Shown here: positions 36,157-50,637 of the stretch, in pieces | Numbering within the stretch: the stretch's first letter is position 1 | Layout of the letters: each line of letters starts with the position of its first letter | Assembly: GCF_018139545.1 (NCBI RefSeq) | Contig: NZ_JAGSPJ010000008.1 | Location: 62,001-126,000, forward strand | Reading direction: 5' to 3' | DNA length: 64,000 nt | From: Affinundibacterium fentianense | GTDB taxonomy: Bacteria; Pseudomonadota; Gammaproteobacteria; Burkholderiales; Burkholderiaceae_D | The notes under the pieces: generated by a model | The model's database searches: none | The model's input: the letters and a program-made list of their open reading frames with translations, nothing else | What the model was told of the DNA's origin: nothing | Position numbers and translations under genes: made by a program

Positions 36157-36978
36157 TTAACTACGTGCTGGCATCCCTAAAATCTTACGCGCTTCGTCCG
36201 GAGTCGCCACTGCTCTATCATGTTCACGACTGATGCGTGCCACGCGCTCTACTAATTGTGCATTGCTGGTAGCGAGTTCACCTTTGCGGTAATACACGTT
36301 ATCTTCAAAACCAACACGCACGTGACCACCGAGGATGATTGCCATAGTCGCTAGTGGCAATTGCGCAGCACCGATTCCTGCAACGGTCCAACTTGCCTCT
36401 GCTGGCAATTGCGAACGCATATACATCAAGGCTTCTGGCGTACCCGCCATTGCACCAGGAATACCTAGTACGAAATCGACGTGTAATGGCGCGGTGATTA
36501 AACCTTTTTTCAACCAGCGATTCACGGTGGTGATCATGCCGGTGTCGAACACTTCGTATTCGATTTTAACGCCCAAGTCTTTCATCGTCGTCGCGAAGAT
36601 ATCCATGTCATCGGGATGATTCATGAACACGTCGTTGCCGAAATTGACTGACCCCATCGAGAGGGTTGCCATTTCTGGTTTCAAAGTGACTGGCGCCAGA
36701 CGTTCTTGCGCTGTCATGCCAACTGCGCCGCCTGTAGAAACTTGCACGATCACATCGCAGCGCTCGCGGACTTTGTTGATGATTTGGCGATAGATTTCTT
36801 TATCTTGGGTTGGCGTGCCGTCGTCATAGCGTCCATGTACGTGCACGATGGAGGCACCAGCTTTGGCGCATTCGAATGCTGCATCGGCGATTTCGTCTGG
36901 GGTGATGGGGAGGTTTGGTTGTTGTTCGCGGGTGACTTCTGCGCCGGTTAGGGCTGCGGTGATGATGAGTTTTTCCAT
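36157..36978 (-). CDS. kce: 3-keto-5-aminohexanoate cleavage enzyme (BKACE family)
   Basis: Zn-dependent enzyme that condenses 3-keto-5-aminohexanoate with acetyl-CoA to give acetoacetate and 3-aminobutyryl-CoA, a late step of lysine fermentation. Residues seen are Glu in GAEVTREQQP, the Zn histidines in HVHGR, the STGG loop, and the catalytic-side RVGFEDN near residue 228. It is 273 residues, the family norm. BKACE enzymes vary in substrate, but the surrounding kam/kdd/kal genes make this assignment strong. It is the last gene of the cluster, separated from kal by an 870-base repeat-filled gap. Confidence 0.93.
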   Translation of the reverse strand: MEKLIITAALTGAEVTREQQPNLPITPDEIADAAFECAKAGASIVHVHGRYDDGTPTQDKEIYRQIINKVRERCDVIVQVSTGGAVGMTAQERLAPVTLKPEMATLSMGSVNFGNDVFMNHPDDMDIFATTMKDLGVKIEYEVFDTGMITTVNRWLKKGLITAPLHVDFVLGIPGAMAGTPEALMYMRSQLPAEASWTVAGIGAAQLPLATMAIILGGHVRVGFEDNVYYRKGELATSNAQLVERVARISREHDRAVATPDEARKILGMPARS

Positions 36979-37035
36979 GTTTTGCCTCTTATAGTTGGCG
37001 TTTTTTTCTAACTAATTCATTGGCTTATTTATAGG

Positions 37036-37650
37036 GCGGGTGCAACCCGCGTTTTTTCTTTTCTACTTCGTTTTCGCGTTCGCATTTGCTGATCGTTCAC
37101 TGGTCGGGGGTAGCCCGACAGCTAGTTACCTTTTCTGCTTCGCCAAAAAAGATAACCCAAAAAAGGCGACCGTAGACTCGCCCTGCGGGGTGCTTACGCT
37201 ACGCTTCAGCATAATTTGTGCATCACAAAAAATGGGAAAGTGTTGAAACTCGCCTTCGGCTCAAACAACAACACTTTCTTATCCATTTTCTGTGACGCAC
37301 AAATTACATCGTCTCAAACGGAGGTAAGTCAAATTCAAAAACAACAGCAACACCAAAACAATCATTCTCAACGAACGCATATTTTTCTACTGACGGCTCT
37401 GTGTCGTTGCTTTTGACTTTGCTTTTGACTTTGCTTTTGACCTTCATCCACTTCTGACACTGCCAATTGTGCGAGACAGAAAATGGATAAAGAAAGTGTC
37501 GTTGTCTGAGCGCAGCGAGTTTCGACACTTTCCCATTTTTTGTCTTGCACAATTGGGAAGCCGAAGGCCAGTGGCAGCGTGGTCGCCTTTTTTGGGTTAC
37601 CTTTTTTGGCGAAGCAAAAAAGGTAACTGGCTGTCGGGCCACACCCGACC
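37036..37650. repeat. Composite inverted-repeat element between kce and kal
   Basis: Outer 70-base arms at 37102-37171 and 37581-37650 are inverted copies with five mismatches. Inside lie two related imperfect hairpins of about 93 bases (37213-37305 and 37463-37556). Each has AATTTGTGC- or CCAATTGTGC-type ends and an AAATGG..AAAGTGT core. Left of the arms is GCGGGTGCAACCCGC (37036-37050). Short frames across it appear to be by-products of the repeats. No transposase is present. It looks like a non-autonomous palindromic element of a type frequent in Burkholderiales. Confidence 0.8.
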
Positions 37651-37734
37651 TACTGAACGACGAACAACAAAAACCGTTAAATCAAATTACAAACGACAGA
37701 ACAACTCAGCTTTCACACAATCTACAAACTAAAT

Positions 37735-37845
37735 CCCATCCCAACCTCCCACCGCGCCGCTTGCAAGCGGCTTAGAAATTGGTGGTGCAAAGCGTGCTTT
37801 GCGAAAGCCCTCCAATTTCCCCTTGAAGGGGAAGGAGCAAGGTAA
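37735..37845. repeat. Structured palindromic repeat downstream of kal
   Basis: Three perfect palindromes in succession: GCCGCTTGCAAGCGGC (37756-37771), GCAAAGC-GT-GCTTTGC (37787-37802) and TTCCCCTT-G-AAGGGGAA (37817-37833). Flanking AAATTGG and CCAATTT also pair. This is a multi-hairpin intergenic repeat immediately downstream of the kal stop, so it may stabilise or end the kal mRNA. Confidence 0.65.
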
Positions 37846-37849
37846 GTAA

Positions 37850-38257
37850 TCAGCGCTTAATCCGCTGAAAATCCGCCGGCACCACACAAGTCCCAGAAGC
37901 CTTACAAACAACAACAGGCTCAGCCAACACATCAGCAGCAGAAACCTGTCCAGCAATCTTCGCAGGAGAAATCACTTTACGCGCTTCAAATTCCATCTTG
38001 CGTGAAGTCTTGCCCATAGAGACAATGCGACCTGTCGCTTCTATGTAATCACCAGCAAACACTGGCGCCATAAATTGCACATTGTCATACGCGACAAACA
38101 AGCCTTCATCACCATCACTACGAATCAATAATTCCGTCGCGACATCGCCAAACAAATTCAACATCTTCGCGCCATCAACCAGATCACCCGCATAGTGTGC
38201 GTCGTGCGAACCCATGCGTAGACGTATCATGCTTGTGTATTTGGATAAGTCTTCCAT
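37850..38257 (-). CDS. kal: 3-aminobutyryl-CoA ammonia-lyase
   Basis: Hotdog-fold lyase that removes ammonia from L-3-aminobutyryl-CoA to give crotonyl-CoA. The 135-residue product has the family-like N-terminal half ([36 protein letters not shown]) and a hotdog core with [23 protein letters not shown]. The identification rests on resemblance plus position between kamE and kce. It is separated from kamE by a REP-like pair, so it may be expressed as its own unit or by read-through. Confidence 0.9.
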
Positions 38258-38288
38258 TTATTACCTCTTTCAAATTCTGTTCAGTGCT

Positions 38289-38453
38289 CCCTTCTCCCGC
38301 AAGCGGGAGAAGGGTTGGGGATGAGGGTGGTTCAGAGCATACCAACAAAATTTTGGGTGAATAAAACATTCAACAATCACGGCCATGTTTCAAACACATA
38401 ATTTCGTTTCTGAACCGCCCTCACCCTAGCCCTCTCCCGCTTGCGGGAGAGGG
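38289..38453. repeat. REP-like inverted pair between kal and kamE
   Basis: Two near-perfect palindromes face each other: 38289-38314 (12-base arms with CCCGC-AA-GCGGG core) and 38430-38453 (11-base arms with CCCGC-TT-GCGGG core). Each has an outward tail GGGTGAGGG-type ending in GGTTCA, on opposite strands, so the pair forms a BIME-like unit. The kal promoter or start region lies at its left edge. Confidence 0.85.
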
Positions 38454-38466
38454 AACTTAAATTCAC

Positions 38467-39231
38467 TTACGCAGCGTGACGTTTAATCCACTCATGAATC
38501 GCAAACGAAGCGACATCTTCTGCATACGACTTGGTACCGAAGCCCGCATCGTAACCCAACTCCTTCGCTAATTCATGCGAAATACGTGGGCCTCCGACCA
38601 CCAAGATCACTTTATCACGCAAGCCTTCTGCTTCTAACAGATCAGATAACTTCGTCAAATTATCGAGGTGAATATTCTTTTGCGTCACGACTTGCGACAC
38701 CAAAATCACGTCGGCTTTTTCTTCAATCGCACGGGCGATCAATTCTTCTGAATCGACTTGTGCGCCCATATTGATCGCGCGAACTTCATGATAGCTTTCC
38801 AAGCCTTTGTGGCCGTTATAGCCCTTCATATTCATGATCGCGTCGATACCGACGGTGTGCGCGTCGGTCTCGATACACGCGCCAATGACGACCATACGAC
38901 GTCCCATTTTTTCCGCGATCAAGGCATTGATCGCGTCTTTATCCAAGGTTTCATATTCTGGCTTGACGACTTGGAAGCTCGATAAATCGACTTGATGTTT
39001 GCACTGACCATACACGACGTAAAAACTAAAACCCTTACCCATGTCTTCGCTATGCACCACTGCTGGCTCTTCTAAACCCATCAATAATGCCAAGCGCTTA
39101 GCACCTTCTTTTGAAGTCTCATCGAGTGCAACTGGTAAGGTGAAAGAAACTTGTACGCGACCATCATTCATCGTGTCGCCGTAAGGCTTAACCCATTGTT
39201 CTGGTTTTTTGATATCTGCCATTGTTGTCAT
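38467..39231 (-). CDS. kamE: Lysine 5,6-aminomutase beta subunit
   Basis: Cobalamin-binding subunit of the adenosylcobalamin and PLP-dependent mutase that turns L-beta-lysine into 3,5-diaminohexanoate. The 254-residue product has an N-terminal dimerisation-like part (~1-110). A B12-binding Rossmann domain then follows with the base-off motif DAHTVG in IGACIETDAHTVGIDAIM, plus VILVVGGPRISHELAKELGYDAGFG. It follows kamD by ten bases. Confidence 0.95.
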   Translation of the reverse strand: MTTMADIKKPEQWVKPYGDTMNDGRVQVSFTLPVALDETSKEGAKRLALLMGLEEPAVVHSEDMGKGFSFYVVYGQCKHQVDLSSFQVVKPEYETLDKDAINALIAEKMGRRMVVIGACIETDAHTVGIDAIMNMKGYNGHKGLESYHEVRAINMGAQVDSEELIARAIEEKADVILVSQVVTQKNIHLDNLTKLSDLLEAEGLRDKVILVVGGPRISHELAKELGYDAGFGTKSYAEDVASFAIHEWIKRHAA

Positions 39232-39241
39232 GTTATTCTCC

Positions 39242-40792
39242 TTACGCTGTCTGTGTTGGCAACATCAATTGTGGGAAAGGATTGTAGTAATCCGCTGCTT
39301 TGCTGATCACACCAGCCAAACCTTTACCTCCAGTTGGGGTGCGTGAAATCTCGGCAAAAGTGCCCTTGCCAATTGCGGCTGATAAACCCATTGCTTCAAT
39401 TTCTGCCAGAATTTTTTCTGTCTCTGCCAACACTTCTTGTGCGCGGGTTTCGATCTTTCCACCGGATTTAAATTCGATTTCCGAGTTCAAATCTTTCATC
39501 GTACCGAACACATACTTCGCATTTTGAATTGCCAAGAAACGATCTTGAATAAATGGCGTATGAATCGCCTCAGTCATCATGCCGAGCAAATGAATATTTT
39601 GATTTGTTACGGTACTGACGATGTTAAATAAAGTGTCCTGAACCTGACCTTTAAAAATATTGCCTGTCATGTGTTTGGTTGGCGGCATGTATTTCAATGA
39701 CGCATCTGGAAATACTTGACGCACCAATTGCGCGTGCGCCATTTCCCACAAGAAGCCGTTTTCTAATTCAGGATTGATTTCAAATGCATGACCGAGACCC
39801 ATTTGATCTGGCTGCAAACCAGACAAGTACGCAAACTGTTCATTGATTAATTGGGATGCCAAGACGGTGTGTGCCGCTTCGTAGGCATCTGCCGTCGTCA
39901 AATAATTGTCTTCACCGGTGTTGATGATAATACCCGCATAGGCATTCACCATGCGTGAGAAGAATTGATCGATGAAAGTACGCTTCATATTGATGTCGCG
40001 GAAGATAATGCCGTACATCGAATCATTCAGCATCATATCGAGACGTTCAATCGCGCCCATTGCCGCGATCTCTGGCATACACAGACCTGAGCAATAGTTA
40101 GTCAAGCGAATATAGCGGCCAAGTTTTTCACCGACTTCATCCAAAGCAGCGCGCATCAGTTTGAAGTTTTCTTGGGTCGCGTAAGTACCACCGAAACCTT
40201 CGGTCGTTGCGCCATACGGCACGTAGTCGAGCAAACTTTGACCAGTTGAGCGAATCACCGCAATGATGTCGGCACCCTGTTCTGCTGCGGCGCGTGCTTG
40301 CACCACATCTTCATAGATATTGCCGGTCGCAACAATCAAATATAACCAAGGTGTTGGTGCTTCGCCCATGGTCTCAATTTGCTTCGCGCGGAATGCACGT
40401 TGACCAGCGATGTGCTGACACATGATCGCAGCTTGTGCTTCTGTCGCTTTACGCGCTGCATCGGCATCTTTTGGTAAAGCTAAGGTCAGTGTGCCTTTTG
40501 ACACGGCTTCTGCTACAGCTTGCGCCGTCATATTGTGTTCTTGCATGGCAGCGACCACGATAGGCGCTGCACCATGTTGCAATAAGTTTTGTGCTTGTAA
40601 ATGATCAACCACCACGTTGGGCAAAGGTACATAGTTTTCATCAATGCCATCGATGCCGAGCAAACGCAAAGTGGCGCGCTCTACCGTCGTCGTCGTGTAC
40701 TGTGACATTTCATCGAACACCTCACGTGCAATGCGACGCGCGGAATCACGTGCACGGTCGATTTGTGCCTGATCTAGTTTTAATTGGCTCAT
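39242..40792 (-). CDS. kamD: Lysine 5,6-aminomutase alpha subunit
   Basis: Catalytic TIM-barrel subunit that binds PLP-lysine and adenosylcobalamin with KamE. The 516-residue product matches family length. Recognisable segments are TTTTVERATLRLLGIDGID near the start, VIRSTGQSLLDYVPYGATTEGFGGTYATQENF, RLTNYCSGLCMPEI and GIIINTGEDNYLTTADAYEAAHTV. Its ATG overlaps the TGA of the P-loop gene upstream (ATGA), so the two are translationally coupled. Confidence 0.96.
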   Translation of the reverse strand: MSQLKLDQAQIDRARDSARRIAREVFDEMSQYTTTTVERATLRLLGIDGIDENYVPLPNVVVDHLQAQNLLQHGAAPIVVAAMQEHNMTAQAVAEAVSKGTLTLALPKDADAARKATEAQAAIMCQHIAGQRAFRAKQIETMGEAPTPWLYLIVATGNIYEDVVQARAAAEQGADIIAVIRSTGQSLLDYVPYGATTEGFGGTYATQENFKLMRAALDEVGEKLGRYIRLTNYCSGLCMPEIAAMGAIERLDMMLNDSMYGIIFRDINMKRTFIDQFFSRMVNAYAGIIINTGEDNYLTTADAYEAAHTVLASQLINEQFAYLSGLQPDQMGLGHAFEINPELENGFLWEMAHAQLVRQVFPDASLKYMPPTKHMTGNIFKGQVQDTLFNIVSTVTNQNIHLLGMMTEAIHTPFIQDRFLAIQNAKYVFGTMKDLNSEIEFKSGGKIETRAQEVLAETEKILAEIEAMGLSAAIGKGTFAEISRTPTGGKGLAGVISKAADYYNPFPQLMLPTQTA

Positions 40793-41898
40793 GCTACTTC
40801 TCCTGTTTCTTTAATTTTTTCATTGGAAGTTGCTTCGAGGACGACGTCACAAACGTCATAGCCAACAAAAGCAGCTTTCGCGACTTGCAAAAACTCAGCA
40901 GCCTCAAAACTGCCACCCATGGGCGAAAATGGATTCAAGGTAATCCCAGTCAAATTAATGCCACGATACCCGACTAATTTCGCACCGAGTTTTTGAAAGA
41001 TCAATAAATCGGTATTTTCTATAAATAATTTCGTGCCATCTGCAACAACCACGTTCAATGCTGAATGACGTTCCGCCAAGCTACTTAAAGCGCGCCACAA
41101 ATTGCGCCCAACAGCACCGCTAACGGCGATGGTGCCAACCTTGGCATCGATGTATTCCATCAACTTCGCACCCGCATTGAGAGTGGCAATTTCTTCTAAA
41201 AAGAGGATCTTCCCATCTTGATCCCAAATACCAACGCCACCTTGTGTAAACACGGCTTCACATTGGGCTTTGACATGATCATCTGCTTGTTTGATACCAA
41301 GAATGCCAAGGCGATCACGTGTTTTGCGGATCACATCTTGAATACCGCCACCAATTGCAGCACCAGTCGCTAAAATCACGCCATCTGCAATCGCTGGAGA
41401 CGCATGATGACTGCGACCTAAAGCGCCATCCAAAATCACCAAGCTTGCACCGCATTGACGTAAGCGCGCGATGACTTTTAGTTGATCACTGCCACGCGAT
41501 GCGCCAGCGACTTCCATCTCACCATATTCCAACACCTTGACCACCAAAATCTCCCCCATAGGGCTGTCGATCTGTGTTGAGTCAATTAATTTCCAACGTA
41601 CTTTGGCACGCTGCAAGGTTTCACGTGCAGTGGCAACGAGATTACCTGGCCACACCATGATCGGTGGTTTGGGATTGAAAAAAACTTGATCTCGGTCTTC
41701 GCCATCACGACCGATTGAGGTCAAGCCGATGTCCACTTGCGCTGCCGCTGCTTGCGCCAGCACATGGTTCATTGCGACAGTCTTACCGGTGTTTTTGGTC
41801 ATGCCCATGACCGCTAAGGTTTGCATGCCACTATCGTGGATGCGTTGCCAGAGCGGACTGGTTTTGATATGACTTAATGTGGGATGTTTGAACTCCAT
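40789..41898 (-). CDS. P-loop protein in the kamB position, possible aminomutase reactivase subunit
   Basis: A 369-residue soluble protein started at MEFKHPTLSH; a longer frame to 41970 overlaps kdd and is less likely. A Walker-A-like GMTKNTGKT lies at residues 32-40. Later features include VILDGALGRSHHASPAIADGVILATGAAIGG and QKLGAKLVGYRGINLTGITLNPFSP. Clusters of this pathway in Fusobacterium and Porphyromonas carry two extra genes, kamB and kamC, proposed to reactivate the B12-dependent mutase. This gene is placed like kamB. No MutS-like kamC is in the window. ATPase and reactivase roles are inferred, not shown. It is coupled to kamD by a four-base overlap. Confidence 0.7.
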   Translation of the reverse strand: MEFKHPTLSHIKTSPLWQRIHDSGMQTLAVMGMTKNTGKTVAMNHVLAQAAAAQVDIGLTSIGRDGEDRDQVFFNPKPPIMVWPGNLVATARETLQRAKVRWKLIDSTQIDSPMGEILVVKVLEYGEMEVAGASRGSDQLKVIARLRQCGASLVILDGALGRSHHASPAIADGVILATGAAIGGGIQDVIRKTRDRLGILGIKQADDHVKAQCEAVFTQGGVGIWDQDGKILFLEEIATLNAGAKLMEYIDAKVGTIAVSGAVGRNLWRALSSLAERHSALNVVVADGTKLFIENTDLLIFQKLGAKLVGYRGINLTGITLNPFSPMGGSFEAAEFLQVAKAAFVGYDVCDVVLEATSNEKIKETGEVA

Positions 41899-41929
41899 CG
41901 TCGGCAACTTTCTAAGTTCTAGAGCGAAA

Positions 41930-42976
41930 TTAAACGTAGAGTTCTGTGAACAACTGACGCAGTTTTTCACTCTCGCGCAAGAGCGCTAAAGAATGCTCCG
42001 CATGCCCCGTCGCGTAACCATTACCCACGATCATTTCCACGTCTTTACCGACACCTTCTGCGCCTAAGGCAGCTGCGGTGAAGCTAGTTGCCATTGAGAA
42101 GAAATAAATTTTTCCATGCTGCTTGGTGGACAAAATACTGCCCATTTCCGTGTTCTGAATATTCACGCAATTGATGACTAAATCCGCCATTGCGCCATTG
42201 GTCACTTTCGCTACGGCTTCCATCAAGGCCAAAGCATTGGTCGCATCAACTTGCAAAGTATGATCGGCCCAACCCAATTCTTGCATGCGTTTGCAGTCTT
42301 TTTCAAATGGGGAAACGCCGATCACGCAACCGTTTTTACCAGCGCGTTTTCTCGCTTCGTACACACACAAAGTACCAGACTTGCCACCACCACCGATAAC
42401 AACGACGGTGTCGCCTTCTTTCACCAAACGTGCTGTCTGCGCAGGTGCGCCAGCCACGTCCAAAATAGCGAGCGCCATTTTTTCATCGATATCATCTGGC
42501 AACTTAGCGTACAAGCCGGTTTCAAACAAAATCGCTTTACCTTTGATATCGACCTGATCTTTTTGCATATGAATTTTGACGATTTCATCAATGCGCAAAG
42601 GTGTCAATGACAAGGAGACCAAGGTAGCAATTTTGTCGCCTACTTTTAAGTCAATCTTGCCGGCTAAAGATGAACCAATTTCCAAGATCGTTCCGATTAA
42701 CATACCGCCAGAACCGGTCACCGGGTTGTGATGTTTACCGCGTTTTTCAACAATGCCTTTGACGATTTCTGCCACTTTGGCTTCATCACCATTCGCTTCT
42801 TGTTTGATTTGCGTAAAGCTGGCGGCGTCGATATTTAAAGCGGAAACGTCGATCAGGATTTCGTTGTCTGTGATCTCCATCGTGTTATCGATCCTCCACG
42901 CGCCTTGTGGCAAGACGCCTTGTGGTTCGATAACGCGGTGAATTCCGTATGGGGAGCTTGGTGTTGTAGTCTTCAT
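41930..42976 (-). CDS. kdd: L-erythro-3,5-diaminohexanoate dehydrogenase
   Basis: NAD(P)-dependent oxidative deaminase that makes 3-keto-5-aminohexanoate and ammonia. The 348-residue product has a GroES-like N-terminal region, PVTGSGGMLIGTILEIG, then a Rossmann domain with VVVIGGGGKSGTLCVYEARKRAG, then MADLVINCVNIQNTEMGSIL and a C-terminal GYATGHAEHSLALLRE. It lies 31 bases upstream of the P-loop gene. The gap to kamA (225 bases) holds the second REP-like pair. Confidence 0.95.
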   Translation of the reverse strand: MKTTTPSSPYGIHRVIEPQGVLPQGAWRIDNTMEITDNEILIDVSALNIDAASFTQIKQEANGDEAKVAEIVKGIVEKRGKHHNPVTGSGGMLIGTILEIGSSLAGKIDLKVGDKIATLVSLSLTPLRIDEIVKIHMQKDQVDIKGKAILFETGLYAKLPDDIDEKMALAILDVAGAPAQTARLVKEGDTVVVIGGGGKSGTLCVYEARKRAGKNGCVIGVSPFEKDCKRMQELGWADHTLQVDATNALALMEAVAKVTNGAMADLVINCVNIQNTEMGSILSTKQHGKIYFFSMATSFTAAALGAEGVGKDVEMIVGNGYATGHAEHSLALLRESEKLRQLFTELYV

Positions 42977-43030
42977 GATGAATTTCGTGAAAATTGGACG
43001 TGCGCAAAAAGAATAATTGCGATGAATGCT

Positions 43031-43183
43031 CCCTCTCCCGCAAGCGGGAGAGGGTTAAGGTGAGGGTGACTGAAATCGCTGCATCGCTGGAAAGAAGCAA
43101 TGCCGAAATTCATGCATTTAATGACTGACATTCATTACTGAAAATCCCTCACCCCCACCCCTCTCCCGCCTGCGGGAGAGGGG
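43031..43183. repeat. REP-like inverted pair between kdd and kamA
   Basis: Palindromes at 43031-43054 (11-base arms around AA) and 43158-43183 (12-base arms around CT), same consensus as the pair at 38289-38453 and again in opposite orientation. The tails GGGTTAAGGTGAGGGTG and CCCTCACCCCCACCC are inverted homologues. Confidence 0.88.
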
Positions 43184-43201
43184 CTTTAACAACGTAACAA
43201 T

Positions 43202-44383
43202 TTAATTACTACGCGTAGGCAAACTAAAGTTATGACCCAAGCCAGGCATATCGATTGTCATGCCTTTGTAGTTACGGCACTTGACTGTGGTGCCGCTACC
43301 GTCTGGCAATTCTTCTTCACGTACATAAGTAGGAATGATAGGCAATTTACCCAAGCCACCCAAACCGTCTACCACGAATGTTGGTACTGCTGGACCACTG
43401 ATCCAACCACGCAAGCCTTCATACAATTCAATCATACGGTGATGTGGCACGATGAAGTGCGCTGCACCTTCAACCATGTCTGTGGAGTACACATAATAAG
43501 GGCGTACGCCCATTTCAATGGTTTGCATGAACAGATCACGCATTACCATCACGTCATCATTCACGCCTTTCAAACAGACTGTTTGCAAGCCCATCATGAT
43601 GCCGGCTTTTTGTATCATCTTCACGCGTTGACGCAGCAATGGGGTGATTTCTTTTGGATGACCGATATGGATATTGATCATCTGTACGCGATGCTTTTCC
43701 AATACCGCACACAATTCTGGTGTAACGCGTGTTGGCAATTGCACGACCATGCGGGAACCCATACGCAAGAAGCGAACATGCGGTGCGCGACGACGAATTT
43801 CGCCGAGGATGTAGTCCAAGCGCTCATCGGTAAATGTCAACGGATCACCGCCAGACAACAACACGTCTTCAATTTCTGGATTGCTAGCGATGTAGTCAAT
43901 CGATGCTTCGATTTCATCTTTCGCAACGGAACCATCAGGCTGCGACACCATACGCTTACGTGTGCAGAAACGGCACAAAGTTGCGCAAGTATTGGAAACC
44001 AAGAACAACACGCGACGTGGATAACGATGCACCACGCTAGTACCAGGAATCGTATCGCCCTCTTCACCCAATTGATCTAAGGATGTCGCGAAGCCAGGAA
44101 CGGTTTGTTCATGGTGCGAAGGCATGTATTGCAAGCGGATAGGACAATTTGGATCATCTTTGTCCATCAATTTCGCCATGTAAGGCGTAATTGCAACTGC
44201 GAATTTTTTGTAGACGGTGTTATCGACGTCTTCTACATTATTCAACACGCCCATCAATTCAGAATGGTGAGAATAACGACGCGTGAATTGCTTTTGCCAA
44301 GATTCTGACTCTGGATCATAAGCGTCTAATTCTTCGCGTGTCAGTAATTTCTTGATAGGATTAAATTCGACTTTTTGGTCCAT
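43202..44383 (-). CDS. kamA: Lysine 2,3-aminomutase
   Basis: Radical SAM/PLP enzyme converting L-alpha-lysine to L-beta-lysine, first step of the pathway. I started at MDQKVEFNPIKK (393 residues) because an upstream frame to 44545 crosses the promoter and operator region. The cluster ligands are Cys133, Cys137 and Cys140 in CATLCRFC. Asp302 and Asp339 have the 37-residue spacing of the two aspartates that hold the lysine epsilon-amino group in the clostridial enzyme. Lys346 lies seven residues on, as expected for the PLP lysine. The PLP loop reads DGLGGLGK rather than the clostridial DAPGGGGK as I recall it. The Asp pair argues against an EpmB or glutamate mutase role. Confidence 0.95.
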   Translation of the reverse strand: MDQKVEFNPIKKLLTREELDAYDPESESWQKQFTRRYSHHSELMGVLNNVEDVDNTVYKKFAVAITPYMAKLMDKDDPNCPIRLQYMPSHHEQTVPGFATSLDQLGEEGDTIPGTSVVHRYPRRVLFLVSNTCATLCRFCTRKRMVSQPDGSVAKDEIEASIDYIASNPEIEDVLLSGGDPLTFTDERLDYILGEIRRRAPHVRFLRMGSRMVVQLPTRVTPELCAVLEKHRVQMINIHIGHPKEITPLLRQRVKMIQKAGIMMGLQTVCLKGVNDDVMVMRDLFMQTIEMGVRPYYVYSTDMVEGAAHFIVPHHRMIELYEGLRGWISGPAVPTFVVDGLGGLGKLPIIPTYVREEELPDGSGTTVKCRNYKGMTIDMPGLGHNFSLPTRSN

Positions 44384-44528
44384 GATTTGGCTCTCTCTGT
44401 TATGTCGCAGCTGTGTCGCTATGACGGCAAAATGTGATGGGTACCCATATGGGCAACAGGGAGATAGTGTAAGGAGGTGTTGTGCCGCCACAAACGTACA
44501 AAATGACTTAAACAACAAACAAAAGTCA

Positions 44529-44543
44529 GTCATAATGTATGAC
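44529..44543. promoter_or_regulatory. Inverted repeat GTCAT-N5-ATGAC in the kamA/lrp divergent region
   Basis: A perfect five-base-arm, 15-base inverted repeat lies 39 bases before the Lrp-type gene and about 145 bases before kamA. Size and A/T-rich centre fit Lrp/AsnC operators, so it is a candidate autoregulatory or pathway site. A related half-match, GTCATAATCATG, lies at 45370-45381 before ald. Confidence 0.5.
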
Positions 44544-44581
44544 ATTCAAACAAAGTGCCTGAAACGCAACTCATTATTCGT

Positions 44582-45025
44582 ATGTCATCATCCTTAGACC
44601 CACTCGATCAGCAAATTATTGATTTACTCAAAGTGAATGCACGCTTACCCATCGTGGCGATGGCAAAAGCGCTAGGCTGCGCCCGCAGCACCGCACAATT
44701 ACGCTTAAAGTCATTAGAGGACCGTGGCATCATCAGTGGCTATACAGTCGATGTCTCTATCAGCCGCAGTCGCCCCAGCATACGCGCAATGGTCTTGATT
44801 TCTATCGAATCGCAGCATGAACCTGAAATCATGCGGGCACTCACTAAGCGGCATGAGATTATCAAATTGTACACGGTTAGTGGTCGCTATGATTTGTGCG
44901 CGATGCTGTCGACGGAATCGACGCACGAACTCGACGCGGTGATTGACAAAATTCGCTTGATTAAAGGCGTGGTAGACACGTTTTCGACGATATTGCTGTC
45001 GACTAAATTAGATAGACCGGAATAA
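44582..45025 (+). CDS. Lrp/AsnC-family transcriptional regulator
   Basis: A 147-residue regulator started at MSSSLDPLD. The N-terminal helix-turn-helix is LDQQIIDLLKVNARLPIVAMAKALGCARSTAQLRLKSLEDRGII, and the C-terminal RAM domain contains IIKLYTVSGRYDLCAMLSTE. It is divergent from kamA with a 198-base shared promoter region. It is likely the amino-acid-responsive regulator of the kam cluster, with lysine or beta-lysine as possible effectors (inference). Confidence 0.93.
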   Translation: MSSSLDPLDQQIIDLLKVNARLPIVAMAKALGCARSTAQLRLKSLEDRGIISGYTVDVSISRSRPSIRAMVLISIESQHEPEIMRALTKRHEIIKLYTVSGRYDLCAMLSTESTHELDAVIDKIRLIKGVVDTFSTILLSTKLDRPE

Positions 45026-45482
45026 TCACTGCCTAGTCAACGTAGATAAAAAGATACCAAAAGTACGCAGAGCCCGTGCGGCAAAGAATGCTCATTTAGT
45101 GTGCAATGTTCGATTCCTAAGACATCATACTTACGACCTGCTCAATACAAGACTATTCGACGGAAATGAAGGACAGTCGAAAATCCCACTTCGATATGAA
45201 CAACAATCAAACTGGCTAATGTCGGCATGAAACCAGAATTTCCGTTCTGATTTCAATACGGCACTGCTAATTTTGTACAGAAATCCATACATTGTGCGTA
45301 CGCACAATCGCTAGATTTGACCAAACTTAAGTTTTTCATAAGAAGCACGAAGATCATCATTTTCTGAATGTCATAATCATGCACGACCGAAGACATATCG
45401 GATCGTTGATAACAATAATAAAGGTGACGTAGGAACGAGTTTTTCCAACGTTTTTTATCCTCAAGTTATAGAAAGAGACATC
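45026..45482. other. Regulatory region before ald with a perfect 18-bp palindrome
   Basis: The 457-base gap has no gene. At 45291-45308 is ATTGTGCGTACGCACAAT, a perfect 18-base palindrome about 175 bases before ald, a strong operator candidate for an Lrp/AldR-type dimer. A GTCATAATCATG sequence at 45370-45381 partly matches the operator before the Lrp-type gene. Confidence 0.6.
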
Positions 45483-46598
45483 ATGATCGTAGGCGTACCT
45501 AAAGAAATTAAAAACCACGAATATCGCGTGGGCATGACCCCATCTTCCGTACGTGAATTGACTTCACGTGGACATCAAGTTTTGGTTCAAAAGAATGCGG
45601 GCACCGAAATCGGCTTAACAGATGAACAGTACAAAGCAGTCGGTGCTGAACTAGTAGAAAACGCAAAAGAAATTTTTGAACGTGCGGAAATGATCGTCAA
45701 AGTAAAAGAACCGCAGCCCGTTGAATGTGCCATGCTGCGTCCAGGTCAAATTTTATACACGTATCTACATCTTGCGCCGGACCCTGAACAGACTGCGGCA
45801 TTAGTCAAATCAGGCGCGATTTGCATCGCTTACGAAACGATCACCGGGGCGAATGGTGGCTTACCTTTATTGGCACCAATGAGTGAAGTTGCTGGTCGTA
45901 TGGCGATCCAAGCCGGAGCCGCACATTTAGAAAAATCCAAAGGTGGCATGGGCTTATTGCTCGGCGGTGTTCCCGGCGTTTCACCTGCACATATAGTCAT
46001 AATTGGCGCTGGTGTGGTTGGCACCAATGCGATGCAAATGGCGGTTGGTACCGGTGCGCGCGTTACTGTGCTCGATAAGAGTGTTGATCGCCTACGTCAA
46101 TTAGATTTGGTTTATGGTAACCGCATCTCAACCGTCTATTCGAATGCGCAATCAATCGAGGAAGCTGTGCTCTCCGCAGATTTGGTTATCGGCGGTGTTT
46201 TGGTACCAGGCGCGGCCGCACCAAAATTAGTGAGTCGCGATCTGATCTCACGCATGAAAAAAGGCGCTGTTGTGGTCGATGTCGCAATCGATCAAGGTGG
46301 ATGCTTTGAAACATCACATGCAACAACCCATGCTGAGCCGACCTACCTCGTCGATGGCGTTATTCATTATTGCGTGGCAAATATGCCAGGAGCAGTCGCT
46401 CGGACTTCAACATTCGCCCTCAACAATGCAACGGTAGGGCATGCGGTTGCACTGGCAAGTAAAGGATGGAAACAGGCACTGCGCGACGATGTACATTTGC
46501 GTAACGGTCTGAATGTTTGTGAAGGGCAGGTAACCTATGAAGCCGTTGCTCGTGACTTGGGCTATCAATACGTCGCAGCCGACGACGTATTGAGATAG
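45483..46598 (+). CDS. ald: Alanine dehydrogenase
   Basis: NAD-dependent enzyme that interconverts L-alanine and pyruvate plus ammonia. The 371-residue product has the N-terminal catalytic domain (MIVGVPKEIKNHEYRVGMTP; Lys in MIVKVKEPQ; catalytic His in LYTYLHLAPDP), a Rossmann motif, VVIIGAGVVGTNA-like IVIIGAGVVGTNAMQMA, and HYCVANMPGAVARTSTFALNNAT. Its place after the Lrp regulator suggests a link with the kam pathway. It could assimilate the released ammonia into alanine while recycling NADH, which is inference. Confidence 0.96.
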   Translation: MIVGVPKEIKNHEYRVGMTPSSVRELTSRGHQVLVQKNAGTEIGLTDEQYKAVGAELVENAKEIFERAEMIVKVKEPQPVECAMLRPGQILYTYLHLAPDPEQTAALVKSGAICIAYETITGANGGLPLLAPMSEVAGRMAIQAGAAHLEKSKGGMGLLLGGVPGVSPAHIVIIGAGVVGTNAMQMAVGTGARVTVLDKSVDRLRQLDLVYGNRISTVYSNAQSIEEAVLSADLVIGGVLVPGAAAPKLVSRDLISRMKKGAVVVDVAIDQGGCFETSHATTHAEPTYLVDGVIHYCVANMPGAVARTSTFALNNATVGHAVALASKGWKQALRDDVHLRNGLNVCEGQVTYEAVARDLGYQYVAADDVLR

Positions 46599-49218: not shown

Positions 49219-50637
49219 ATGCGAATTCAATCTCTACTCTACGCAATCGCTGCACTGCTGATGCTTATGCTGGAAAATGTGAGCATGGCAGGTACCACAC
49301 AGATCGCAACACTGCGTCTAGACTATTTTCATAGCGGCAACGCGAAAACTGAACACTACGCTCTAGATCGAATTGTTATCGAGCCATTACCTTGGCCAGG
49401 CAACCCAAAGAAAAACTTGGACAATACAAATCGCGGCTCGCATTTATTTGAAGTTCGCGACAAGCAAACAGGAAAATTACTCTACTCGCGCGGCTTTGCC
49501 ACCGTGTTTGGAGAATGGCAATCCACCGATCAGGCGAATAAATTAGAACGCGGATTTCAAGAATCCTTGCGTTTCCCCAAACCCGACGCGCCAGTTTCGG
49601 TACACGTTCTCAAACGAGATAATCACAATCAATTCCAATTAGCATGGAGTATCGATGTCGACCCAAATGCACAACAAGTCATTCGACATTCTGCTGCACC
49701 TCAATTCACTCCCGTTTTAGTCCACGGCGATGGAAAGACCCAAAACAAAGTCGATTTATTGATTATCGGCGATGGGTACACCAAGAAAGAGATGACAAAG
49801 TTTATCCGCGATGCAAAACGCATGAGTCGGTATTTATTTACAGTCTCACCGTACAAGGAGCGATCGGACGATTTCAACGTATGGGCGCTCGCAGTTCCCA
49901 CTTTACAAACAGGTATTTCGCGTCCATCAACTGGCCAATTTCACGCGGATAGCACGGGCGCAAGCTATGATATTTTTGGTAGTGAACGTTATGTCCTCAC
50001 TCTAGATAACCGTGCTTTGCGGGAAATCGCACAAAACGCGCCATACGAATTTATTGAAATTTTGGTCAATAACGAGACCTATGGAGGCGGTGGCATATTT
50101 GGACAATTTTCGACCGCAGCCGCAAATAGCGATTGGGCGAATTATCTCTTTGTTCATGAATTTGGACACCATTTCGCCGCGTTGGCAGATGAATATTACA
50201 CGTCGCCAGTAGCCTATCAAACAGGTGCAGACATTTTGGTGGAACCTTGGGAGCCGAATGTCACTGCGTTAAAAAATCCTAGCCAATTAAAGTGGCGAGA
50301 CCTCATTCAAGATGGGACCGCAATTCCTAGTTCCTGGCCAAAAGAACGCTATGAAGCGATTGCACGTGAATTTCAGCAGACTCGCGCGCAACTGCGAAAA
50401 GAACAACGCCCCGAAACAGAAATGAGTGCGCTGTTTAAAAAAGATCTCGCGGAGACCACTGAGTTATTTTCAAAAGATCCGAATTACAACAAGATTGGCG
50501 CCTTTGAAGGAGCAAATTACGAAGCAAAAGGCTATTTCCGTTCACAAATGCAATGTTTAATGTTTGACCGTAGCGAGCAATTTTGTCAGGTATGCCAAAA
50601 CGCTATCCATAACATTATTGATCTGTATAGCCGCTAA
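49219..50637 (+). CDS. Secreted M64-family metallopeptidase
   Basis: A zinc peptidase of the IgA-peptidase M64 family. An N-terminal signal peptide (about 24 residues) precedes an N-terminal domain to ~150. The catalytic part begins near DLLIIGDGYTKKEMTKF, and the zinc site is HEFGH at 313-317 within FVHEFGHHFAALADEYY, the family signature. The C-terminal end has a Cys pair (FCQVCQ) and MQCLMF. At 472 residues it is ordinary in length. The target is unknown; most members are not proven IgA proteases. Confidence 0.9.
   Translation: MRIQSLLYAIAALLMLMLENVSMAGTTQIATLRLDYFHSGNAKTEHYALDRIVIEPLPWPGNPKKNLDNTNRGSHLFEVRDKQTGKLLYSRGFATVFGEWQSTDQANKLERGFQESLRFPKPDAPVSVHVLKRDNHNQFQLAWSIDVDPNAQQVIRHSAAPQFTPVLVHGDGKTQNKVDLLIIGDGYTKKEMTKFIRDAKRMSRYLFTVSPYKERSDDFNVWALAVPTLQTGISRPSTGQFHADSTGASYDIFGSERYVLTLDNRALREIAQNAPYEFIEILVNNETYGGGGIFGQFSTAAANSDWANYLFVHEFGHHFAALADEYYTSPVAYQTGADILVEPWEPNVTALKNPSQLKWRDLIQDGTAIPSSWPKERYEAIAREFQQTRAQLRKEQRPETEMSALFKKDLAETTELFSKDPNYNKIGAFEGANYEAKGYFRSQMQCLMFDRSEQFCQVCQNAIHNIIDLYSR

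Follow-up and report, generated by a model that had tools for sequence, protein, structure and literature searches.

A stretch of 64,000 nucleotides from Affinundibacterium fentianense (contig NZ_JAGSPJ010000008.1, positions 62,001 to 126,000; hereafter the window) carries a row of seven genes, kamA, kdd, kamB, kamD, kamE, kal and kce, whose predicted products cover the lysine-specific steps of the 3,5-diaminohexanoate route, down to acetoacetate and crotonyl-CoA. We consider it probable (roughly 0.7) that this cluster is a lysine catabolic operon whose four-carbon products are most likely oxidised to acetyl-CoA. It represents a known pathway in a variant form, with KamB as the only predicted reactivase subunit, a KamA subfamily without the zinc site, and an array of phased predicted operators in its promoter.

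In the proposed pathway KamA would move the alpha-amino group of L-lysine to yield beta-lysine, and KamDE, using pyridoxal phosphate (PLP) and adenosylcobalamin, would move the terminal amino group to yield 3,5-diaminohexanoate. Kdd would deaminate this compound oxidatively, Kce would cleave the product with acetyl-CoA to give acetoacetate and 3-aminobutyryl-CoA, and Kal would take ammonia off the latter to leave crotonyl-CoA. KamB would maintain the activity of KamDE without KamC, and a divergently encoded Lrp-type protein, probably sensing lysine or beta-lysine, would control the operon locally through the phased sites. Acetoacetate would be used via ScoA/ScoB and crotonyl-CoA via hydration and thiolysis, or it would be stored as polyhydroxybutyrate (PHB); each lysine would be expected to yield three net acetyl-CoA without losing CO2.

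Gene content and family assignments

The row occupies 36157-44383 and is transcribed on the minus strand, in the order in which the genes are named above. Scores are in bits, with model cut-offs in brackets.

44582..45025, plus strand: Lrp/AsnC-family regulator gene, divergent from kamA; PF01037 and PF13404; its open reading frame (ORF) opens at GTG 44555
43202..44383, minus strand: kamA, divergent KamA-family radical S-adenosylmethionine (SAM) aminomutase; TIGR00238 passed, TIGR03820 failed; start moved from 44545
41930..42976, minus strand: kdd, putative L-erythro-3,5-diaminohexanoate dehydrogenase; NF052381 281.3 (cut-off 200)
40789..41898, minus strand: kamB, putative P-loop reactivase subunit of KamDE; NF052386 335.2 (cut-off 210); start moved from 41970
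39242..40792, minus strand: kamD; NF052384 863.3 (cut-off 600); matches the solved KamD at E 7e-205
38467..39231, minus strand: kamE; NF052385 392.3 (cut-off 280); DAHTVG and NMKG stretches align with the solved beta subunit
37850..38257, minus strand: kal, putative 3-aminobutyryl-CoA ammonia lyase; NF052388 194.4 (cut-off 160)
36157..36978, minus strand: kce; NF052387 441.6 (cut-off 382); matches 2y7d (KCE) at E 7e-90 with the VHVH and GGHxRxGFEDN motifs aligned

Six of the seven cluster genes, all but kamA, score above their NCBIfam equivalog cut-offs. Six genes of the route thus stand in one row, comprising equivalogs of KamD, KamE, Kdd, Kce and Kal and a member of the KamA subfamily. Both KamDE models are passed, and the DxHxxG motif for B12 and the PLP lysine region are present. 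The nine genes named in the first-pass annotation are all open frames where it placed them, and what it called a P-loop gene can now be identified as KamB (NF052386, lysine 5,6-aminomutase reactivase subunit). Its pathway call also holds, although 'near-complete' was too weak a wording: the lysine-specific steps are all represented, and genes for the later steps lie elsewhere in the genome. For the regulator, the AsnC/Lrp family and the divergent position were borne out, while the top NCBIfam model, LysM, scores 95.6, under its cut-off of 180. The starts are likely to be at 44383 for kamA, 41898 for kamB and ATG 44582 for lrp, the last because a candidate operator overlaps GTG 44555.

Distribution and selection

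A wider cluster search, which the first-pass annotation had proposed, was made by scanning species genomes for KamD relatives. This gave 514 stretches, of which the best 80 were kept; setting aside 11 non-pseudomonadotan ones left 69 loci. All seven genes occur in the same order and on one strand in 60 of these 69, and 56 of the 60 have the divergent lrp. In eight of the remaining nine the genes missing from the fetched stretch are those at one end, and one, L076, lacks kamB inside the row. Carrier hosts include Rhodoferax, Paucibacter, Ideonella, Aquabacterium, Aromatoleum, Dechloromonas and Accumulibacter, and the nearest relative by cluster proteins is Undibacterium baiyunense (KamD 99.6-100% identity). 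KamD was found in 1 of 399 genomes of an order-wide sample, namely the window's own. A plasmid search brought up no more than two entries, the PLSDB 'plasmid' records NZ_CP154629.1 (2.6 Mb) and NZ_CP084075.1 (2.1 Mb); both have lysine clusters but are the size of chromosomes and seem to be labelled wrongly.

Comparison with U. flavidum gave ratios of nonsynonymous to synonymous change (dN/dS) of 0.010-0.033 for 8/8 genes, six of these genes having a dS above 1. In L015, which is more distant, seven of the genes were found, and for five of them dS had reached saturation. These codon comparisons indicate that the cluster is under purifying selection within Undibacterium. Taken together, the low ratios and the recurrence of the same gene order suggest that the cluster is more than a chance assembly.

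The patchy carriage of the cluster (9/43 genus genomes, seven above cut-off and two partial) and the repeat elements that interrupt its gaps would fit a horizontally acquired passenger with no physiological use in Undibacterium. The dN/dS ratios, the intact reading frames, the operator array retained in the window and the presence of prfA next to the cluster in four of the six Undibacterium loci examined argue otherwise, and we regard a mere passenger as highly improbable.

Fate of the pathway products

Elsewhere in the own genome, a 4.23 Mb draft, the single CoA-transferase pair belongs to the ScoA/ScoB subfamily and lies near a 3-hydroxybutyrate dehydrogenase gene, and a PhaC_N protein is also encoded. 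A row of cobalamin genes has cobO, cobB and cobQ above cut-off, together with a TonB-B12-like receptor (434 of 599.7) and a BtuC-like permease that are both below cut-off; a PduO-type adenosyltransferase is present as well. The anaerobic ribonucleotide reductase NrdD was not found in this genome. From ScoA/ScoB, the capacity for cobalamin adenosylation and the lack of NrdD we infer an oxidative fate of the products, and the route may be used with some oxygen present. The idea that the cofactor genes form part of an acquired trait was rejected, as the two adenosyltransferase families are near-universal, occurring in 38/43 and 42/43 genus genomes.

Alternatively, the route could serve anaerobic lysine fermentation, to which the host would switch in sediment micro-niches. 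The enzymes are the same as those of the anaerobic pathway (PMC3149608), NrdD occurs in three of the nine genus carriers, and the record titles of L057, L060 and L062 name groundwater. However, the sole CoA-transferase pair of the own genome is of the ScoA/ScoB type beside 3-hydroxybutyrate dehydrogenase, and NrdD is missing from it. Moreover, Clostridium sp. OS1-26 (L088) has AtoD/AtoA-, acyl-CoA dehydrogenase- and electron transfer flavoprotein (Etf)-like ORFs by its cluster, whereas none was seen by eye beside the window cluster; nor was any butyryl-CoA dehydrogenase-like ORF seen there, an enzyme that was not searched for genome-wide. Fermentation is thus unlikely in our judgement, and oxidation of the products to acetyl-CoA remains the preferred reading.

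The pathway may plausibly operate when oxygen is present. More tentatively, and with somewhat less than even confidence, we suggest that freshwater betaproteobacteria have an oxygen-tolerant, KamC-independent respiratory lysine route, with a zinc-free KamA, KamB alone and an Lrp switch, rather than an anaerobic speciality. Aerobic and facultative lysine catabolism is usually explained by the decarboxylation, delta-aminovalerate and saccharopine routes. A radical-SAM and B12 route that is conserved, under selection and specifically regulated would, if this proposal is correct, add a carbon-saving lysine pathway to such bacteria, with three acetyl-CoA per lysine feeding the tricarboxylic acid cycle or PHB.

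In favour of the lysine catabolic reading, amino-acid ATP-binding cassette (ABC) transporter genes similar to lysine/arginine/ornithine and histidine systems lie beside the cluster in some Rhodoferax and Polaromonas loci. The substrate-binding protein of L023 scores 247.4, slightly short of the 256.35 required for the lysine/arginine/ornithine subfamily; in L021, both ATPase and permease fall below the named histidine-system models.

A divergent KamA subfamily

The window KamA passes only the KamA subfamily model TIGR00238 (269 against 199.2), while KamA of Acetoanaerobium, the control for the lysine 2,3-aminomutase equivalog TIGR03820, scores 645.2 on the latter. Residues 20-357 align to 2a5h, an L-lysine 2,3-aminomutase. 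The CxxxCxxC motif, Arg134, Asp293, Asp330 and Lys337 (2a5h numbering) are kept in 61/61 pseudomonadotan KamA rows, counting that of the window. They do not set the group apart, since 29/29 other KamA-family rows of a phylum sample keep them as well. Asp293 and Asp330 are lysine-binding and, with Arg134, Lys337 and the CxxxCxxC cysteines, count as catalytic residues of lysine 2,3-aminomutase; Cys268 and the C-terminal cysteines form its zinc site. Cys268 is found in 0/61 pseudomonadotan rows and in 0/29 of the other phylum-sample rows, against 8/9 rows from Firmicutes and Fusobacterium, and the C-terminal segment with the remaining zinc cysteines is missing from all 16 proteobacterial rows aligned.

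A KamA tree, another proposal of the first-pass annotation, unites the 18 proteobacterial rows with 100/100 support; the stem of the group measures 2.54 changes per site, and its placement among long branches is unsure. Among the matches listed from 398 evenly drawn Pseudomonadota genomes, no KamA relative apart from the own gene exceeds 45% identity, and the predicted structure is mediocre (pLDDT 75.4). By these sequence comparisons the window KamA belongs to a divergent subfamily that shares 40-43% identity with classical KamA and lacks its zinc site, and its substrate is predicted to be L-lysine. An annotation relying on the AblA cut-off alone would overlook this protein.

The divergence raises a further alternative, in which the substrate of KamA is an amino acid other than lysine, or its role a different one, while lysine reaches KamDE by a different entry, such as imported beta-lysine. 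The AblA score of 325.7 is close to that with the glutamate 2,3-aminomutase model (311.4), both being far below cut-off, and the long tree stem points the same way. Both aspartates are nevertheless kept in every pseudomonadotan row, albeit also in the 29 others; kamA is the first gene in 60 complete loci, and the later steps require a 3,5-diamino product. Such an entry is improbable, and L-lysine stays the favoured substrate.

KamB in the absence of KamC

KamC (NF052383, cut-off 300) was passed in three of the 26 genomes searched, all three Firmicutes, and was below cut-off genome-wide in 17/17 distinct pseudomonadotan carriers (22 locus handles, five of them repeats). The best KamC score is 164.5 in the own genome and 222.3 in Peptococcaceae L080, and the sub-cut-off matches of L080 and the pseudomonadotan genomes are at levels seen for MutS-type proteins. 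The spacing of the genes agrees: the gap between kamB and kamD is at most 359 bp in proteobacterial loci (n=65), whereas Acetoanaerobium, Fusobacterium, Clostridium, Tumebacillus and Thermoactinomyces have a gene of 487-573 codons there, which in Acetoanaerobium and Thermoactinomyces scores as KamC.

KamB of the window and of most rows has a Walker A-like GMxKNxGKT motif. Its AlphaFold2 model has a pLDDT of 91.5, and in a fold search no PDB entry reached an E value of 0.001, the only likeness being weak and partial, to P-loop proteins such as Get3, MinD, MobB and MeaB. Recombinant clostridial KamDE undergoes substrate-induced suicide inactivation (PMC3958899), and therefore some repair is to be expected. 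We infer that KamB keeps KamDE active alone, which would make the cluster a natural test of a KamDE reactivase working without KamC; the cluster would also offer a KamA without a zinc site.

The closest KamDE relatives outside Pseudomonadota in our tree, which was rooted on clostridial rows by choice, are Peptococcaceae UBA6129 (L080) and two Negativicutes metagenome-assembled genomes (MAGs; L072 and L074), in all of which kamB adjoins kamD. They and the proteobacteria form one branch (support 100/99) that is separate from the KamC carriers, although L080 sits on a long branch and its placement is unsure. L080 differs from the window in two respects: its KamA gene is partial, about 42% identical to that of the window, and lies some 7 kb away from kdd, and its cluster includes a class III aminotransferase-like gene. 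L072 and L074, whose KamD is 73-75% identical to that of the window, have no room for kamC, as judged by the kamB-kamD distance only; their contigs end with KamA outside the view, and they are possibly a donor lineage or misbinned contigs. Since the tree joins these three KamC-less loci with the proteobacteria, the loss of KamC seems to be older than the proteobacterial cluster.

The first-pass annotation had raised the possibility of an adapted enzyme set. The divergence of KamA and the loss of its zinc site bear this out in part, but the loss of KamC cannot simply be read as an adaptation to oxygen: KamC is also below cut-off in L080 and lacking by spacing in L072 and L074, and these three branch beside the proteobacteria.

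Two further sets of loci vary in content. L076, from a Sphingomonadales MAG, has a beta-type KamA with neither kamB nor kamC in the row, and KamC is below cut-off genome-wide. In Thermoactinomycetaceae, an aerobic family, L083-L086 and L091 have KamA-KamE clusters, and by model score L085 has KamC and a KamA of the classical type; neither kal nor kce was matched within these five fetched stretches.

The divergent promoter

Palindromes in the gap between lrp and kamA gave the consensus TCAGTCATwATGACTGA. With a matrix built from 45 non-Undibacterium promoters, three candidate operators are predicted here, none assigned to a strand:

44494..44510: O3, 7.5 bits, a weak site and only the twelfth-ranked match in the window; its distance from O2 is exactly 32 bp
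44526..44542: O2, 19.2 bits, top match in the 64 kb
44546..44562: O1, 16.3 bits, second match in the 64 kb; exactly 20 bp from O2

The sites are phased, and this recurs across genera. A search for second sites, with no spacing rule beyond a 10 bp minimum, found one above 5 bits in 52 of 59 promoters, and 52/52 of these lie 20, 32 or 52 bp from the best site. When the flanks were shuffled, by single bases, a second site appeared in 33/1180 runs and one of the 33 had such a spacing; with leave-one-out matrices, which still keep close relatives, 51/51 second sites fit. The O1-O2-O3 triple scores 43, compared with -11.8 at the best place outside this promoter. Not every promoter has the array; by leave-one-out the best site falls below 10 bits in four of the 59 (L020, L054, L068 and L087). 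Best operator matches also exceed mononucleotide shuffles (mean 13.5 vs 9.8 of 17), a comparison that is biased because the consensus was chosen from the same promoters, and we therefore rely on the spacing test. The phased sites probably form a local Lrp operator, with both binding and effector predicted.

A wider Lrp regulon is not supported, judging by one strict pattern and by eye. The strict pattern occurs at seven places in the own genome (reversed control, four), of which two are in this promoter and five are in or near genes with no lysine link by eye. A conserved block at about 44465-44493, CGGC...CTAAA-like and on the kamA side of O3, is also present in related promoters and may be a promoter or leader element.

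Weighing the lysine catabolic reading

Several observations weigh against a lysine catabolic operon of the kind proposed. KamA fails the lysine 2,3-aminomutase equivalog (325.7 against a cut-off of 525.4), and its lysine substrate is only predicted, because of this low score and the long stem of its group. Inspection of the neighbouring ORFs of the window by eye revealed no lysine permease. NrdD occurs in 3/9 genus carriers and 8/34 non-carriers, and carriage therefore does not track aerobic or anaerobic life. As to control, O3 of the window is weak, and a second site above 5 bits is lacking in 8/59 promoters by leave-one-out and in 7/59 in the second-site search with the shuffled-flank control. 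Finally, L076 lacks even kamB, and KamB is not known to have been assayed on its own, with KamC left out.

Comparison with known systems

The lysine fermentation cluster of Fusobacterium, Clostridium and Acetoanaerobium (kal-kce-kdd-kamA-kamB-kamC-kamD-kamE) has, like the window, all the lysine-specific enzymes, and the classical clusters L092, L093 and L088 are 59-63% identical to it in KamD and 60-61% in Kdd. Unlike them, the window has no KamC over cut-off, another gene order, a divergent lrp with phased sites, and a KamA of another subfamily (40-43% identity) without the zinc site; unlike the Clostridium cluster, it has no AtoDA-like ORFs seen alongside. The AblA/AblB pathway, which makes the osmolyte N-acetyl-beta-lysine, also starts with a KamA-family lysine 2,3-aminomutase; the window cluster is predicted to be degradative and has no acetyltransferase among its conserved members.

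The first-pass annotation held that the route is known mainly from anaerobes, in agreement with PMC3149608, PMC8473912 and PMC4697335. The last two describe the 3,5-diaminohexanoate route in anaerobes. The first presents the pathway and models of the cluster that include a MutS-family gene, and it also reports the Kat variant of Candidatus Cloacamonas. That variant follows the same route to 3-aminobutyryl-CoA, where the aminotransferase Kat replaces kal, which the window retains. A literature search by title and start of abstract found no description of a betaproteobacterial cluster; its thin coverage of subscription journals makes this weak evidence of absence.

Neighbouring genes and other features

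Alanine dehydrogenase, which the first-pass annotation had counted with the cluster, is present as an NCBIfam equivalog (536.7, cut-off 391.85) but is only a neighbour. Its gene, ald, lies within the fetched stretch in 3/69 loci, all Undibacterium, and the Undibacterium loci L013 and L016 extend more than 5 kb beyond lrp yet show no ald. The operator-like site at 45203-45219 is weak (8.3 bits), and ald was rejected as a pathway member. HmgA and FahA of the neighbouring tyrosine catabolism were confirmed; acetoacetate, a product of both routes, is the most that would connect them with the lysine cluster. An M64-family peptidase is encoded at 49219-50637, and neither an Rfam match nor a tRNA was found within the window.

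The gaps of the cluster contain pairs of 24-bp GC-rich palindromes (REP/BIME-like), at 38290-38313 and 38430-38453 between kamE and kal and at 43031-43054 and 43159-43182 between kdd and kamA. The kal-kce gap holds an element of about 550 bp (37102-37650) with 70-bp inverted arms that are 93% complementary. Similar sequence is present in five other Undibacterium loci, in opposite orientation in two of them (L012 and L081).

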